Position numbers and translations under genes: made by a program | From: an uncultured Pelagibacteraceae bacterium | GTDB lineage: Bacteria; Pseudomonadota; Alphaproteobacteria; Pelagibacterales; Pelagibacteraceae | Direction of reading: 5' to 3' | Assembly (NCBI GenBank): GCA_902590915.1 | Contig: CACIYQ010000009.1 | Span: forward strand, 1-33,653 | DNA: 33,653 nt | The notes under the pieces: generated by a model | The model's database searches: none | What the model saw: the letters and a program-made list of their open reading frames with translations, nothing else | What the model was told of the DNA's origin: nothing | Shown here: one piece after another, positions 11,233 to 22,211 of the stretch | How the letters are laid out: each line of letters begins with the position of its first letter | Numbering within the stretch: the first letter of the stretch is position 1

Positions 11233-12113
11233 TGTTTTCAATTTTAATTCCTACATTCAATAACCTAGAATATTTAAAACTATGCATATCAAGTTTAGAA
11301 AAAAACTCGAAATATACTCATCAGATTATACCTCATGTTAACATTGGTGATGATGGAACTTTGAATTATCTAAAAGAAAAAAATATAGAATATAGTTATA
11401 CAACATATAATTCAGGTATTTGCAAAGGTATTAACATGGCATCCAAATTGAGTAAATTTGATTACATTTTATATGCACATGATGATTTTTATTTTTGTCC
11501 AAACTGGGATGAAATTTTAGTGGATGAGGTAAATAAAATTGGTCACAATAATTTTTATTTATCTGGCACAATGATGAATAATGGACAAATAGCATTTAAT
11601 TGTGGTGAGAGTCCTAATAACTTTAATGAAAAAAAATTTCTAGAAGAATATGAAAATCATAATTTATATGATTTTCAAGGTACAACATGGGCCCCCATGT
11701 TAGTGCATAAAGAATTATGGGAAAAAGTTGGTGGTTTCAGTGAGGAATTTTTTCCAGGCACAGGATCAGATCCTGATTTTAATATGAAGTTATGGAATCA
11801 GGGTGTAAGAATTTTCAAAGGTATAAATAATTGTAAGGTTTATCATTTTGGATCAATTGTACTCAGAAAAAAAATTAACAAAATTTATAATAATCCAAAT
11901 TACGGTAGCAAAGGTGCTAAATTATTTTTACTTAAATGGGGTATTACAATTAAATTCTTTAAAAAATATTATTTACAATCAAACACAAAATATGAAAAAG
12001 CGCTCGTAAAACCTGTTTATACCTTATCATTTATTTTAAACTATCTAATCTGTAAGTTAAATTATTTATATTTAAAACTTTTCTATGATAAACAATTACT
12101 TAAGAAGAGTTAA
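11232..12113 (+). CDS. GT2-family glycosyltransferase
   Basis: A 293-residue GT-A-fold transferase. The N-terminal FSILIPTFNNLEYLKLCISS is the family signature, followed by NIGDDGTLNYL and the metal/nucleotide-binding acidic motif AHDDFYF. The acceptor region includes TTWAPMLVHKELWEKVGGF and a GSDPDFNMKLW segment. The last about 45 residues are hydrophobic/basic and may associate with the membrane. It probably adds a sugar to a cell-surface glycan; substrate unknown. It overlaps the preceding transferase by 1 base and is 21 bases before the oxygenase gene. Confidence 0.88.
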   Translation: MFSILIPTFNNLEYLKLCISSLEKNSKYTHQIIPHVNIGDDGTLNYLKEKNIEYSYTTYNSGICKGINMASKLSKFDYILYAHDDFYFCPNWDEILVDEVNKIGHNNFYLSGTMMNNGQIAFNCGESPNNFNEKKFLEEYENHNLYDFQGTTWAPMLVHKELWEKVGGFSEEFFPGTGSDPDFNMKLWNQGVRIFKGINNCKVYHFGSIVLRKKINKIYNNPNYGSKGAKLFLLKWGITIKFFKKYYLQSNTKYEKALVKPVYTLSFILNYLICKLNYLYLKLFYDKQLLKKS

Positions 12114-12134
12114 TAGACCACTATTTAAATTCAA

Positions 12135-12935
12135 ATGAATATTATTAATATAAAATATAATAATCTAAAAAAATATTCACAGTTATTTAAATTAGCAAAA
12201 CCTTTTCCACACGCAATATTAGATAATTTTTTAGATGAAAATTTTTTTAAAAATTTAAATTTAAATGAAATCATAATAAATAAAAAAAAAGGAAGAATAT
12301 TCAACACAGATATAGAGAAAAACAAATGGGCAAGTAAAAACGAAATATTATCTAATAATCTTAAGTCAATAATAGATGAACTTAATAAAAAAGATTTTTT
12401 GGAAAATTTACATAAATTAACTGGTATTACTGAGCTATTTTCTACTTCAGAAGGTAATACTTCTTTAGCCAATTACCATGAAATGTATGAGTCTGGTTTT
12501 TTAGGCACACATATTGATCATTCATCAGAGCCAGTTACAGGTCTTCCGCATGTTTTAAATATAATTTTATATTTATCCAAAAATTGGCAAAAATCCTGGG
12601 GAGGTTCCACAATTTTTGCAAACAAATATGGGACGAAAATTGAAAAACTAGTTGACTTTAAACCTAATAGAGCAGTTATTTTTTTGCATAGTCCGTTTAC
12701 ATTTCATGGTGTTACCGAAATAAAAAATAATTTAAATAAGAGATCAACTATTTATGTGGATTATTATTCTGCAAATAAAAGTCCATATGATCATTTGAAT
12801 TTAAAATTTAAAAATGTTTGGTTCAAGCATCCAACAACATTTATACTACCAAATATAAAAGACTATTTTCCAAAAAAAAATAGAATATATTTAAAAAAAA
12901 TGATCAAATATAGAATAAAAGCTTTTTTGTGCTAA
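12135..12935 (+). CDS. 2OG-Fe(II) oxygenase superfamily protein
   Basis: A 266-residue dioxygenase of the prolyl-4-hydroxylase-like 2OG-Fe(II) superfamily. The iron ligands are visible as H126-x-D128 (GTHIDHSS) and H191 (FTFHGV), and R203 (NNLNKRSTIYVDYY) is placed to bind 2-oxoglutarate. The middle strand NIILYLSKNWQKSWGGSTIF is typical of this group. Stand-alone members in glycan clusters are thought to hydroxylate sugars, lipids or proteins; the substrate here is unknown. It lies between the GT2 gene and a broken methyltransferase gene on the same strand, so it belongs to the surface-glycan block. Confidence 0.88.
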   Translation: MNIINIKYNNLKKYSQLFKLAKPFPHAILDNFLDENFFKNLNLNEIIINKKKGRIFNTDIEKNKWASKNEILSNNLKSIIDELNKKDFLENLHKLTGITELFSTSEGNTSLANYHEMYESGFLGTHIDHSSEPVTGLPHVLNIILYLSKNWQKSWGGSTIFANKYGTKIEKLVDFKPNRAVIFLHSPFTFHGVTEIKNNLNKRSTIYVDYYSANKSPYDHLNLKFKNVWFKHPTTFILPNIKDYFPKKNRIYLKKMIKYRIKAFLC

Positions 12936-12942
12936 ACAAATT

Positions 12943-13644
12943 ATGAGAAACCTATTTCGTTTGTTTGTCCCACTAATAATAAATCCTTATTATTATATAA
13001 AAAAAATTAAAAAAAGTTTAATTAAAAATCATTTCGATTATGAGAATAATTTTTACAATAAAGAGTCTTTTATTTCACTTTCAATTGCAAAGATAATAAA
13101 AGATAAAGGGTTCAACAATTGTAATTACTTAGAAATAGGCGTTTGATAATAAGTCATTTAATATAATACCATTACCAAAAAAACAAAAAATAGGTGTTGT
13201 TCCTTTTAAAAGTGGCACACATAGAATGAGTAGTGATAAATTTTTTAAAATTAATAAAATTATTTTTTGATGTAGTATTTATTGATGGACTACATAAATA
13301 TGAACAATGTCAAAGAGATTGTATGAATTCAATGAAATTTTTAAATCAGGGTGGTATTATAATTTTCCACGATAATGTTACCTAGATCCTCTAATGAAGA
13401 AAAACAAGATAAATCTGGAGATGTTTGGAAAAATGCTTATGAAATTTCTATGATGAATGATTCCAAATTTGTTATTGTAAATATTGATCAAGGGGTCGGT
13501 ATATTGAAAGTTAAAAAAAGCGCTAAATATATGAAAATTCCTGAGATAAAAGATAAATCTTTTAAGGATTATATCAATAATTTTAAGCCTAAATTGCCAA
13601 TTGTTAATTCAGACGAGGCTTTAGATTTCATTTTTAACAAATAA
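12943..13644 (+). pseudogene. Class I SAM-dependent methyltransferase remnant, three frameshifts
   Basis: The reading passes through three frames. It opens at 12943 and runs to YLEIGV, the SAM-binding motif I, then meets TGA at 13144. The next frame (from about 13142) continues as FDNKSFNIIPLPKKQKIGV and later THRMSSDKFFKINKI to a TGA at 13268-13270. A third frame (from about 13266) reads FDVVFIDGLHKYEQCQRDCM and then FLNQGGIIIFHDN to a TAG. The last frame (13375-13644) starts MLPRSSNEEK and runs to the normal-looking end. Joined, this is an almost complete methyltransferase of the Methyltransf_24-like type (EIGV, D in FIDGLH, HDMLP). Each shift is equivalent to one extra base; at 13374 the extra A is obvious because HD-MLPR is the family pattern. 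It is non-functional as read, unless the assembly has errors here. Confidence 0.85.
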
Positions 13645-13649
13645 AAATT

Positions 13650-14489
13650 TTAATCGAATTTCGATCTTTTGTATGAACTAAAACCCATAATTGAGGCGAG
13701 TAATCCTTCAATCTTAAAATAGATATATTTAGCCTTTTTTTGATTGATAAATACATTTATTAAGAGTTGTAATAAATTTGTAAAAAAGTTTGGTAGACAT
13801 CTTTGCAGAGCTATAACATAACCAAAATATTTCTTATGATAATAAAATTTTGACCATTGGCCATGCCATCCAGTTAAATAGTAAGCATAATTTCTTTCAT
13901 TTTCATTTTTGAAGAAAGCTGAGCCTTTACTCTTTTTTTTATGGTCATGAAATGAATTCATTATAATATATAATTTATAATCATTATTTTTACATTTTGT
14001 AAAGTAATCATTATCCTCGTAATAGAGAAATATATTCTTATCAAAACCTTTTATCTTTTTAAAAATTTTAGTCTCAAACAGCATTGCTCCACCCGTGAGT
14101 TCCTCCTTTTCAACTATTATTCGATCATATTTTTTTTTTTTATTAAGAATATGATTTGGACTTATTGCTCCAAATTTTTTGATTTTTTTACAATTTCTTA
14201 ATAACAAGTTCAAAGTTGAACTATAGATTTTAGTATCTGGATTTATAACAAAAAAGTATTTTGTTTTAACTAAATTTGCTGCTTTATTTATTGCATTTCC
14301 ATATCCAATATTTTTTTCTAGAGTTACCTTTACATTTTTATATTTCTTATTTATTGCATCTTTGAGACTTTTATCTCTTGAGTTTTCAATGATAATTATT
14401 TGTATTCTTTTGGAAATATTTTTCACATGTTTTAAAATTAATTTTTTTGATTTATATGAGGGAATAACTATAGTTATATCTTTATTCAT
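13650..14489 (-). CDS. GT2-family glycosyltransferase (rhamnosyltransferase-like)
   Basis: A 279-residue GT-A transferase. The signature strand ITIVIPSYKSKKLILKHVKN is followed by IIIENSRDKSL, NIGYGNAINKAANLVKTKYF, the DXD-like VINPDTKIY, and LTGGAMLFETKIFKKIKGFD with IFLYYEDNDYFTKC, the order typical of WbbL/rhamnosyltransferase-like proteins. It probably extends a surface polysaccharide. It faces the methyltransferase remnant (5-bp convergent gap), and its start directly abuts the stop of the recombinase gene upstream on the same strand, so the two may share a transcript. Confidence 0.87.
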   Translation of the reverse strand: MNKDITIVIPSYKSKKLILKHVKNISKRIQIIIIENSRDKSLKDAINKKYKNVKVTLEKNIGYGNAINKAANLVKTKYFFVINPDTKIYSSTLNLLLRNCKKIKKFGAISPNHILNKKKKYDRIIVEKEELTGGAMLFETKIFKKIKGFDKNIFLYYEDNDYFTKCKNNDYKLYIIMNSFHDHKKKSKGSAFFKNENERNYAYYLTGWHGQWSKFYYHKKYFGYVIALQRCLPNFFTNLLQLLINVFINQKKAKYIYFKIEGLLASIMGFSSYKRSKFD

Positions 14490-15461
14490 TTATATTTTAA
14501 TTTTATTTAAAGCATTGTTTTTAAAGATGTTAGCTTCTCTAATATATCTTCTAACCATCTGTGATGATTTGTGACCAGTCATTGCCATTATACTTCTCTC
14601 ATCAGCACCTGACTCTGCAGCAACAGTTGCAAAACCTGATCTTAAACTGTGACCAGCAAAATTTTTATTTTCAATACCTGCTAAGTTCAAATAGTTTTTC
14701 ATTAGTAAAACTACAGATTGATCCGTTAATCTTTTGTGGGTTAATAACGACCCTTTAGAAAATCTTCTAAAAATTGGTCCAGATTTGATTTTGGAAATAT
14801 CTAACCATTTTTTAAGATTGACAACTGGGCAATAAGTTTCATTAGAGAAGTAGGGTAGGCCTTTTATCATCCCTTCTCCAAATTGATCAGTTTTTGATCT
14901 TTTAATAGTTATTTTGAGGCCCTCAGGTACAAATTCTAAATCTTCATGATCAATTGATATAAGTTCAGTTCGTCTAAATCCACCTCCAAAACCAACTAAG
15001 ATAATTGACTTGTCTCTGAATTTCTTAATATTCTTAATTTTTTGATTATCTATTACATTAATTATAGATTTTAAATGATTGATTAATATAGGTTTTTTAC
15101 CTTTTTGAATGCTTCCTTTTATCCTTCTTATCCCCATTAGGTTTTCCACAATAATTGGATGTTTTGTATCTAGATAATACCCTTTAAGTCTATGTATCAT
15201 ACTTATTGATACTAACCTTCTTCTTAATGTGCTGATTTTAGAATTTTTAGAGAGTTGTGTAATGTATAAAGAAACTGTCTTGGGCTCCGCAGGTAAACAA
15301 TTAAAACCATGCTTAACACAAAAAGCCCCAAAATCTTTAAAGTCTGATTTATATGCTCTTAAGGTGTTATCTGCCTTCGAGCTTTTGAGGTTATTTAAAG
15401 TAGCCTCATGAAGTAATTTTACATCTGTTGTCAATTCATTCATAATTACTATTGATAACAA
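14490..15461 (-). CDS. Tyrosine recombinase / phage-type integrase
   Basis: A 323-residue site-specific recombinase. An N-terminal SAM-like core-binding domain (about 17-100) is followed by the catalytic domain with all expected residues: R163 in GFRRTEL, K190 in KRSKTDQ, H271-x-x-R274 in GHSLRSGF, H297 in TGHKSS and Y306 in RRYIRE. It should therefore be active. It is distinct from XerC/XerD in its N-terminal half (TLRAYKSDFKDFGAFC). An alternative start at the second methionine (15443, MNELTTD) is more natural, giving 317 residues. Its place at the edge of the glycosyltransferase block suggests an island integrase, although it may be a long-resident enzyme. Confidence 0.92.
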   Translation of the reverse strand: MLSIVIMNELTTDVKLLHEATLNNLKSSKADNTLRAYKSDFKDFGAFCVKHGFNCLPAEPKTVSLYITQLSKNSKISTLRRRLVSISMIHRLKGYYLDTKHPIIVENLMGIRRIKGSIQKGKKPILINHLKSIINVIDNQKIKNIKKFRDKSIILVGFGGGFRRTELISIDHEDLEFVPEGLKITIKRSKTDQFGEGMIKGLPYFSNETYCPVVNLKKWLDISKIKSGPIFRRFSKGSLLTHKRLTDQSVVLLMKNYLNLAGIENKNFAGHSLRSGFATVAAESGADERSIMAMTGHKSSQMVRRYIREANIFKNNALNKIKI

Positions 15462-15521
15462 TTAATTATCGTTAGTAATATATTAAGTGATTTTAAATGT
15501 CAATAGTTTAAAAAATAAAAT

Positions 15522-15698
15522 ATGGCCTCGATGAATGGAATTATAGAACCAAATTATTTTCTTATTACCTCAATAGCTTTTGCAGTCTTGAGTGCTATTC
15601 AATACAAGAAAGCTGGAAAAACTTTAGAGACAATATATTTGTCAATTCTATTTATTTTTTTTTTAATAAGCTATTTTATACTTATTTTTGGTGATTAG
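15522..15698 (+). CDS. Small two-helix membrane protein, 58 residues
   Basis: An ATG at 15522 opens a 58-codon frame ending with TAG at 15696-15698. The product has a short polar N-terminus with two early methionines (MASMNGIIEPN), a hydrophobic helix YFLITSIAFAVLSAI, a polar turn QYKKAGKTLE, a second helix TIYLSILFIFFLISYFILIF and ends GD. The clean hairpin of two transmembrane segments separated by a basic turn argues for a real small membrane protein. No family is recognised. The second ATG (15531) is an equally possible start. It lies between the divergent recombinase and the candidate structured RNA. Confidence 0.6.
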   Translation: MASMNGIIEPNYFLITSIAFAVLSAIQYKKAGKTLETIYLSILFIFFLISYFILIFGD

Positions 15699-15779
15699 AG
15701 TTATCCCCATCATTCACAGGTCATTACCAAAAAATAAAAAAAACAACTAAAAAGTGATAAAAATAAATAATACAGCTGA

Positions 15780-15785
15780 TATAAG
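15780..15785 (+). promoter_or_regulatory. Candidate -10 box for the structured RNA
   Basis: TATAAG, a 5/6 match to TATAAT, would start transcription near 15792. The -35 region is A-rich with no clear TTGACA-like box, so this is weak. Confidence 0.3.
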
Positions 15786-15791
15786 AAAGTT

Positions 15792-15974
15792 AATTTAGTG
15801 ATGACTCTTAACTACCCAGCTGAAGAAAAACCGCAAGTAACAAATTCAGAGGGCAGAAAGTTTCGCGAGGGGTTGCTGAACGCGCGAGACGGGTGGCGTG
15901 GTGATAGCGAGACAACGACGTGCCTACAACTACTATTTTGTGCACTGAAAAGTGCATAAATACTGTTTTTTTTT
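15792..15974 (+). ncRNA. Candidate structured RNA (GC-rich patch with own terminator)
   Basis: No gene is recognised here. By direct count, 49 of the 80 bases at 15851-15930 are G or C, in a genome where neighbouring DNA is mostly A/T. The patch folds: 15860-15867 (GTTTCGCG) pairs with 15883-15890 (CGCGAGAC) over 8 pairs including one G-U, and 15895-15900 (GGCGTG) pairs with 15919-15924 (CGTGCC). The two loops carry complementary GTTG (15872-15875) and CAAC (15913-15916), which could kiss. A terminator-like hairpin and T-run follow. High GC confined to stems in an AT-rich genome is a classical sign of non-coding RNA. It could be a free sRNA or the regulatory leader of the methyltransferase gene starting at 15985. 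It does not match tmRNA, RNase P, SRP or 6S RNA signatures that I know. The 5' end is a guess. Confidence 0.5.
15937..15974 (+). terminator. Rho-independent terminator-like hairpin
   Basis: TGCACT (15941-15946), loop GAAA, AGTGCA (15951-15956), extendable outward by TTTG/TAAA to about 10 pairs, followed after 5 bases by nine T (15966-15974). It lies at the end of the GC-rich patch and 10 bases before the ATG at 15985. It may end the structured RNA or act as an attenuator for the next gene. Confidence 0.55.
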
Positions 15975-15984
15975 CACACTAAAT

Positions 15985-16254
15985 ATGAATGGAACTAAAT
16001 TTCAACTAAAAGTTTGGAAATATCTTAAAACTATACCAAGAGGCACTGTTAAAAACTATAAACAGGTAGCGATTGCAATAAAAAGACCTAAATCAGCCCG
16101 TGCTGTAGCTAATGCATGTGGAAAAAACCCTTATGCTCCCAAAATACCGTGTCATAGAGTAATTCGGTCTGATGGAGGCCTTGGTGGATACTCAGGCAGA
16201 GGTGGAATTAAGACAAAGCTGCGTTTATTGAGATCTGAAAAAGTTGATATTTAG
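15985..16254 (+). CDS. O6-alkylguanine-DNA methyltransferase family protein, domain-only
   Basis: An 89-residue protein that is just the C-terminal catalytic domain of Ogt/Ada-type enzymes, which remove alkyl groups from O6-alkylguanine. The motifs are FQLKVWKYLKTIPRGTV, the helix-turn-helix RAVANACGKNP with the intercalating arginine, and the active-site PCHRVI with C56, then GGLGGYSGRGGI. Because the cysteine is kept it is not a tryptophan-type alkyltransferase-like (ATL) protein, although its small size is similar. The start at ATG 15985 begins the domain cleanly; a GTG at 15952 in frame would fall inside the terminator hairpin. It lies directly downstream of the candidate structured RNA, which might control it. 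Confidence 0.88.
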   Translation: MNGTKFQLKVWKYLKTIPRGTVKNYKQVAIAIKRPKSARAVANACGKNPYAPKIPCHRVIRSDGGLGGYSGRGGIKTKLRLLRSEKVDI

Positions 16255-22130: not shown

Positions 22131-22149
22131 ATTTTCATAAAACTATCGG

Positions 22150-22206
22150 TAGGCATTTGAACTGTATTGTGCGCCTTACATAAAGTTGAAGCACTAAAAA
22201 AGGAGT
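22150..22206 (+). promoter_or_regulatory. SAM-V riboswitch covering the metY ribosome binding site
   Basis: GGCATTTGAACTGTATTG is the SAM-V core. GGC (22152-22154) pairs with GCC (22173-22175), and GTGC (22169-22172) pairs with GCAC (22191-22194) to close the pseudoknot. The downstream CTAAAAAAGGAG contains the Shine-Dalgarno AAGGAG (22200-22205), 6 bases before the metY ATG. SAM binding would therefore hide the ribosome binding site and block translation. Confidence 0.88.
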
Positions 22207-22211
22207 ATATT

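Follow-up and report, generated by a model that had tools for sequence, protein, structure and literature searches.

The GC-rich patch of the window (the whole stretch of DNA analyzed, 33,653 nucleotides from an uncultured Pelagibacteraceae bacterium) is a gene for IMES-2 RNA, which was catalogued before; it is a rediscovery and not a new family. We regard it as likely that this gene specifies a free-standing, single-copy SAR11 RNA of approximately 180 bases with four hairpins, the third and fourth clasped together, and that the RNA is under relaxed constraint in the window's lineage. Comparison among relatives shows the family membership, the secondary structure, the loop-loop covariation, the upstream elements, and the two main chromosomal homes. 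To the catalogued family, we add three things: a contact between two hairpin loops, conserved elements upstream of the RNA together with its two chromosomal homes, and a copy that is probably in decay.

IMES stands for "identified in marine environmental sequences," and IMES-2 belongs to the orphan RNAs of bacteria that are among the most numerous in the sea. The founding paper on the IMES RNAs reportedly appeared in Nature in 2009, and to our knowledge, these RNAs have no known function. The term "IMES-1" was not found in the literature searched. In the literature searched, the word IMES-2 occurred in a single paper, on the giant squid genome, which calls it a likely contaminant that is known from marine metagenomes (PMC6962438), and the text available on strain HTCC1062 names no such RNA (PMC2704228).

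The GC-rich patch is an IMES-2 RNA gene

When all Rfam families were searched, RF02035 (IMES-2) matched over the full model (positions 1 to 141) on the forward strand of the window at 15787 to 15926, with 88.2 bits and an E value of 3.3e-21. Membership in IMES-2 was decided by score, the gathering score of RF02035 being 54.7 bits. The initial annotation, made from the sequence alone, had proposed an undescribed structured RNA and recommended an Infernal search against Rfam. That search returned RF02035 above the gathering score, and since the match extends over the whole model, the RNA was already catalogued and "undescribed" has to be withdrawn. Its description of the patch was accurate in other respects. 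A recount by eye again gave 49 G/C among the 80 bases at 15851 to 15930; the 8-pair stem (15860 to 15867 with 15883 to 15890) is present and is helix 3 of the Rfam model; and the 6-pair stem (15895 to 15900 with 15919 to 15924) is the outer part of its helix 4. As had been stated, the patch is unlike tmRNA, RNase P, SRP, and 6S RNA: it gave no match to those Rfam families.

The folding energy of the patch was near chance (z-score of -0.24 for 15792 to 15974 and +0.19 for 15787 to 15926). What sets the patch beyond chance is homology, not folding energy. The features of the locus are listed in Table 1.

Table 1. Features at the IMES-2 locus of the window
Feature	Position	Strand	Basis or remark
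Upstream box TTATCCCCATCATTCACA (consensus TTATCC[C/A]CA..ATT[C/A]ACA)	15701..15718	+	Only match in the genome with at most one mismatch
Conserved promoter element CAACTAAAAAGTGATA, -35 position	15744..15759	+	CAAYNANNNAGTGATA matches nowhere else in the genome
-10-like TGATATAAG	15777..15785	+	Read from sequence
IMES-2 RNA (RF02035), divergent copy	15787..15926	+	Covariance model match
Hairpin 1	15794..15811	+	2 of 7 model pairs broken, GCAA tetraloop lost in window copy
Hairpin 2	15812..15856	+	One outer pair broken, 3 of 4 inner pairs lost in window copy
Hairpin 3	15860..15890	+	8-pair stem intact; loop with TTGCTG (15873-15878)
Hairpin 4	15895..15924	+	Loop with TAGCGA (15905-15910), pairs with hairpin 3 loop
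Intrinsic terminator, stem 15937-15960, T-run 15966-15974	15937..15974	+	Terminator scan, fold z-score
ogt, O6-methylguanine-DNA methyltransferase	15985..16254	+	PF01035; TIGR00589 over cut-off

Covariation supports a loop-loop contact between hairpins 3 and 4

For the comparison, 60 representatives below 96% identity were aligned by sequence only; L100, chimeric by eye, was excluded. Five nested helices plus a loop-loop helix were paired in 93.2% of the cells of this alignment. Changes on both sides were seen in 29 of the 45 pairs, and none of 500 shuffles was as good. Compensatory changes in homologues, suggested in the initial annotation as a check, are therefore present. The window copy shares the hairpin plan with the IMES-2 model (RF02035), and its relatives belong to SAR11. 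Its hairpins 3 and 4 have no broken pair except at an internal G-A mismatch position, which is unpaired in all 60 representatives.

The six-pair helix between loops 3 and 4 was paired in 96.4% of the cells, with 14 cells changed on both sides. None of 500 shuffles matched it in paired cells, in both-side-changed cells, or in covariation score, and slid registers paired in at most 56.4% of the cells. Two weaker measures did not stand out: 51 of the 500 shuffles equaled the number of both-side-changed pairs, and 250 equaled that of pair types, so the support for the contact comes from few lineages. The most frequent combination of loop 3 and loop 4 was GCGCUA/UAGCGC (40 sequences); GUACUA/UAGUAC was present in four and UCGCUG/UAGCGA in three. 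The window has UUGCUG/UAGCGA, in which a private C-to-U change still pairs as G-U. At least one of the six pairs was lost in 12 of the 60 sequences: two copies of a locus type designated g2 (GCACUU/UAGUGC, last pair lost) and 10 others (six with UCGCUG/UAGCGC, two with GCGCUA/UAGCGA, one with GCGCUC/UAGCGC, and one with UCGCUU/UAGCGC).

Complementary GTTG and CAAC loops that could kiss had been pointed out earlier. The complementarity exists in the window, but this register is not conserved; it pairs in 24.6% of the cells, a value equaled by 396 of 500 shuffles. The comparison supports a loop-loop contact with compensatory changes in another register. The RF02035 structure line given by cmscan draws no such contact, and nested models cannot show one. 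Some other RNAs, purine riboswitches among them, also have a pair of parallel hairpins that touch through their loops, and the IMES-2 hairpins likewise lie side by side with complementary loops. However, IMES-2 is unrelated to them in sequence (there was no such family among the Rfam matches) and has no regulated gene downstream.

A short protein-coding gene was also considered, since an open frame of 52 codons exists at 15801 to 15959 and might have explained the conservation. A closed frame of at least 45 codons was found in only 1 of the 60 representatives, the window itself. Furthermore, the sister genome lacks the frame, and its ATG is formed by bases private to the window copy. A protein-coding gene is hardly conceivable here.

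The RNA has two main chromosomal homes and is probably not an ogt leader

We screened 191 loci, of which 21 gave no match (18 RNA-less ogt loci, L113, L190, and L191) and 170 did. Removal of L072 and L147 (below 50 bits) and of L138, L145, L048, and L112 (cut by contig ends) left 164 copies, which correspond to 126 distinct RNAs; several copies may come from one genome. Upstream of ogt and on the same strand lie 117 of the copies, 44 lie downstream of mnmA, and 3 are elsewhere.

In the window, the terminator-like hairpin with a run of T claimed in the initial annotation was recovered, with a 10-pair stem. The scan found one terminator compared to a mean of 0.1 in shuffles, and the fold z-score of 15932 to 15974 was -4.44. 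At least five T within 70 bases 3' of the RNA were present in 121 of the 164 copies, and 29 copies had at most three. Among the representatives, at least five T followed the RNA in 31/34 at the ogt home, 11/24 at the mnmA home, and 2/2 of g2; three T were counted in 11 of the 24 representatives at the mnmA home. By these counts, copies at the ogt home clearly have a terminator; the picture is less clear for the mnmA home, where some copies may end otherwise.

These data bear on the choice, left open by the initial annotation, between a free small RNA and a regulatory leader of the methyltransferase gene. The position of ogt downstream on the same strand in 117 of the 164 copies is what a leader would predict. 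However, 44 copies follow mnmA instead, which makes a leader of the methyltransferase gene unlikely, and at four loci that were inspected, three of the mnmA home and one of g2, the gene after the RNA is oppositely oriented. In addition, a terminator separates the RNA from ogt in the window, in line with the T-runs at the ogt home, and an Ogt match (70 to 94% identity) was kept in 18 of 20 RNA-less genomes searched. Across members, a leader would run on into the 5' region of a gene on the same strand; such continuity was not found. A cis-regulatory leader is therefore very improbable, the free RNA is supported, and ogt is a neighbor outside the RNA gene.

Two mnmA-home copies (L151 and L117) are, by eye, nearly equal in their first two thirds to an ogt-home copy (L121). 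Their hairpin 4 and terminator are of the mnmA type, which looks like recombination between the homes. On the other side of the RNA in the window lies a small open reading frame (15522 to 15698, forward strand), membrane-protein-like in our own reading, and beyond it a tyrosine recombinase gene (14490 to 15461, reverse strand), whose product resembles XerD yet scores well under the cut-offs for both XerC and XerD. As we read the loci, the recombinase adjoins the small membrane frame and ogt in relatives whether they carry the RNA or not (L044; L052 to L055).

The GC skew of the window peaks near 12 to 14 kb, and the RNA lies near this peak, where genes converge (12000 to 16000). In another genome (G015), the RNA (near 1.34 Mb) is close to the maximum of the sampled cumulative GC skew. 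In a third (G001), it is at 303 kb, far from the sampled maximum near 720 to 780 kb. A link to the replication terminus, which fits the window and G015, fails in G001, and the terminus-like place is thus not conserved.

Elsewhere in the window, a SAM-V riboswitch (RF01826, 81.6 bits) was found on the forward strand at 22142 to 22208, where a gene for O-acetylhomoserine sulfhydrylase begins (TIGR01326 over cut-off). In SAR11, a SAM-V riboswitch preceding metY has been described (PMC2704228, Table 1).

Conserved elements upstream of the RNA

The GTGAT-type element was present in all 164 copies (1.2 expected; the pattern was derived from the same data), at both the ogt and the mnmA home, and was located 35 to 38 bases 5' of the RNA in 60/60 representatives. 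A shorter pattern of the upstream box, also derived from these data, occurred in 54 of the 60 representatives and in 119 of the 164 copies (1.5 of 164 expected); 45 copies lacked it. In other genomes, the box and GTGAT patterns sometimes miss the RNA or match elsewhere; for example, the box pattern with at most one mismatch misses the RNA in G015, G022, G001, and G007. Judged from these patterns, the GTGAT element and, mostly, the upstream box travel with the IMES-2 RNA. In a raw count, a hexamer with at least four of six matches to TATAAT was seen near the -10 place in 58/60 representatives, and the -10-like TGATATAAG of the window was not listed by a generic promoter scan.

The distance between the box and the GTGAT element was bimodal, 37 to 41 or 47 to 51 bases and never 42 to 46, in the 56 representatives in which a slightly looser pattern located the box, related copies being counted separately. 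The two classes differ by approximately one helical turn, as if the box were held on one face of the helix. No known binder or regulator was found for the box. It resembles the DnaA box (consensus TTATCCACA), but a DnaA/oriC connection was dismissed: the exact 9-mer was unclustered in five genomes and no commoner than a reversed control.

According to the model that we favor, a putative regulator would bind the upstream box and switch the RNA on, so that the RNA would be made when this regulator is active. The transcript would start near 15787 and end at its own terminator near 15970.

IMES-2 is patchily distributed in the order

IMES-2 was detected in 140 of 297 genomes of the order, in one copy each, and in none of 14 control genomes. 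The window's own genome also has a single copy. In a subset of 97 genomes, 30 of 48 from the window's family had the RNA, compared to 0 of 49 from a second family; within the window's genus, 15 of 38 genomes had no match. The window copy (88.2 bits) scored lower than that of its sister G267 (124.7 bits) and than the others (135.6 to 166.3 bits), apart from G001 (68.7 bits), G007 (62.1 bits), and the partial copy of G230 (64.1 bits).

We also searched named contigs for the hairpin-1 pattern, which gave at least 120 matches, 80 of which were inspected. Among the matches listed, 78 of these 80 were from SAR11 (Pelagibacteraceae, Pelagibacterales, or Candidatus Pelagibacter); it is by such named relatives that we place the window in SAR11. 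Of the two non-SAR11 contigs listed, L113 had no RNA profile match and L147 reached 15.6 bits. Viral carriage was rejected: two viral contigs with the hairpin-1 pattern had no RNA profile match, and two further patterns gave no viral contig.

The window's nearest relatives by ogt lack the RNA. A tree of ogt, built on about 270 sites and carrying no support values, placed the window among L052 to L058, which have ogt and no RNA, and a second RNA-less group (L060 to L063) elsewhere. In L052 to L055, the small membrane gene runs directly into ogt, its stop codon overlapping the start codon of the latter, and there is no space for the RNA between the two. A search of 34 genomes, including 30 that have no RF02035 match, by our own covariance model, R1, revealed no convincing hidden diverged copy. 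Four weak full-length matches (G112, G103, G116, and G092; E values of 4e-5 to 0.002) were false positives at the rpoA end and rplQ start, and eight weaker ones (E values of 0.01 to 0.58, including L250 and L251), six of which were read in sequence, were unconvincing.

The window copy is probably decaying

Among the 60 representatives, none folds as weakly as the window copy, with -33.3 kcal/mol compared to a mean of -46.6 kcal/mol (standard deviation, 3.1) for the others and -40.7 kcal/mol for the next weakest. Its fold is 13 kcal/mol weaker than that of the sister, and a rearranged hairpin 1 is the sole exchange. Six of its pairs are broken, a number exceeded only by the two g2 rows, whose score of 16 comes from poor alignment; the count omits two pairs, one open in 35 and one in all 60 of the representatives. 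Of the six, four pairs are intact in at least 57 of the 60 representatives, and the remaining two are unpaired in 11 and 17 of them. At conserved columns, the window copy departs from the consensus nine times, once more exceeded only by g2 (next, 7, 6, and 5). Among the usual but non-defining IMES-2 features, an intact hairpin 1 with a GCAA loop and the inner hairpin of helix 2 are missing here.

We then counted changes on the branches to the window and to its sister (L034, that is, G267). When L099 and L124 served as outgroups, 15 changes in the RNA fell on the window's branch compared to 2 on the sister's, and a short stretch 3' of the RNA had 10 compared to 0. In the same four-genome test, the upstream flank had 30 compared to 70 and the promoter stretch 2 compared to 3. 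The use of L124 alone as the outgroup let the whole ogt be compared. In this test, the counts for window and sister were 15 and 3 in the RNA, 7 and 2 in the terminator stretch, 18 and 17 in ogt, 2 and 5 in the promoter stretch, and 49 and 98 in the upstream flank. The counts place the window's excess of changes in the transcribed part. The contrast of the RNA with ogt is weak (Fisher P = 0.036); that with the upstream flank gave P = 6e-5. The similarity patterns of the four genomes differ among the upstream flank, the RNA, and ogt, so recombination may disturb this rate test.

The RNA in the window's lineage is probably under relaxed constraint, with loss in progress. The breakage would affect hairpin 1 and, in hairpin 2, the inner part; the promoter region is still present, as are hairpins 3 and 4 and a terminator. 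Since neither the promoter region nor these two hairpins have been lost, the copy may instead be diverging under a changed role, with the hairpins and their loop-loop contact retained. In line with this, the promoter stretch has only 2 changes compared to the sister's 5, helices 3 and 4 still pair, and so does the loop-loop helix, its private C-to-U change included. We consider a changed role unlikely: the fold lost 13 kcal/mol relative to the sister with only the rearranged hairpin 1 in return, and the nearest relatives by ogt do not have the gene.

Possible role of IMES-2

The role that we favor for IMES-2 is that of a trans-acting RNA, most likely a protein-bound scaffold. Hairpins 3 and 4 would stand side by side, clasped by the six-pair loop-loop contact, and this clasp, the part surviving in the decaying copy, would be the functional core.

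A more specific proposal is that IMES-2 stands in for 6S RNA, binding RNA polymerase and tuning transcription in SAR11. Its appeal comes from the failure to recognize 6S RNA in the order: RF00013 was found in 0 of 97 genomes (E value cut-off of 0.001) compared to 5 of 14 controls, Caulobacter included, and was detected neither in the window's own genome (E value cut-off of 10) nor in the patch (E value cut-off of 1). IMES-2 is moreover free-standing, of similar length to 6S RNA, and has its own promoter region. However, 6S RNA has the shape of a rod with a central bubble, and IMES-2 has, in addition to giving no covariance match, another architecture, four hairpins with a loop-loop clasp. IMES-2 is also missing too often: the genomes without a match to it, 15 within the window's genus and the entire second family (49), have no recognizable 6S RNA either. 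We therefore view a 6S-like role as quite improbable.

A wider reading would make IMES-2 a SAR11-private accessory regulator. Its promoter would be controlled by a box-bound regulator in helical phase, and a cassette of approximately 270 bases would have been rehomed and would be decaying in some lineages; the RNA might even be 6S-like. As a whole, we hold this reading to be unlikely. If it is true, the window would catch the loss of IMES-2 in progress. The loop-loop contact, the upstream elements, and the series of intact, decaying, and missing copies are handles for testing the role of IMES-2.
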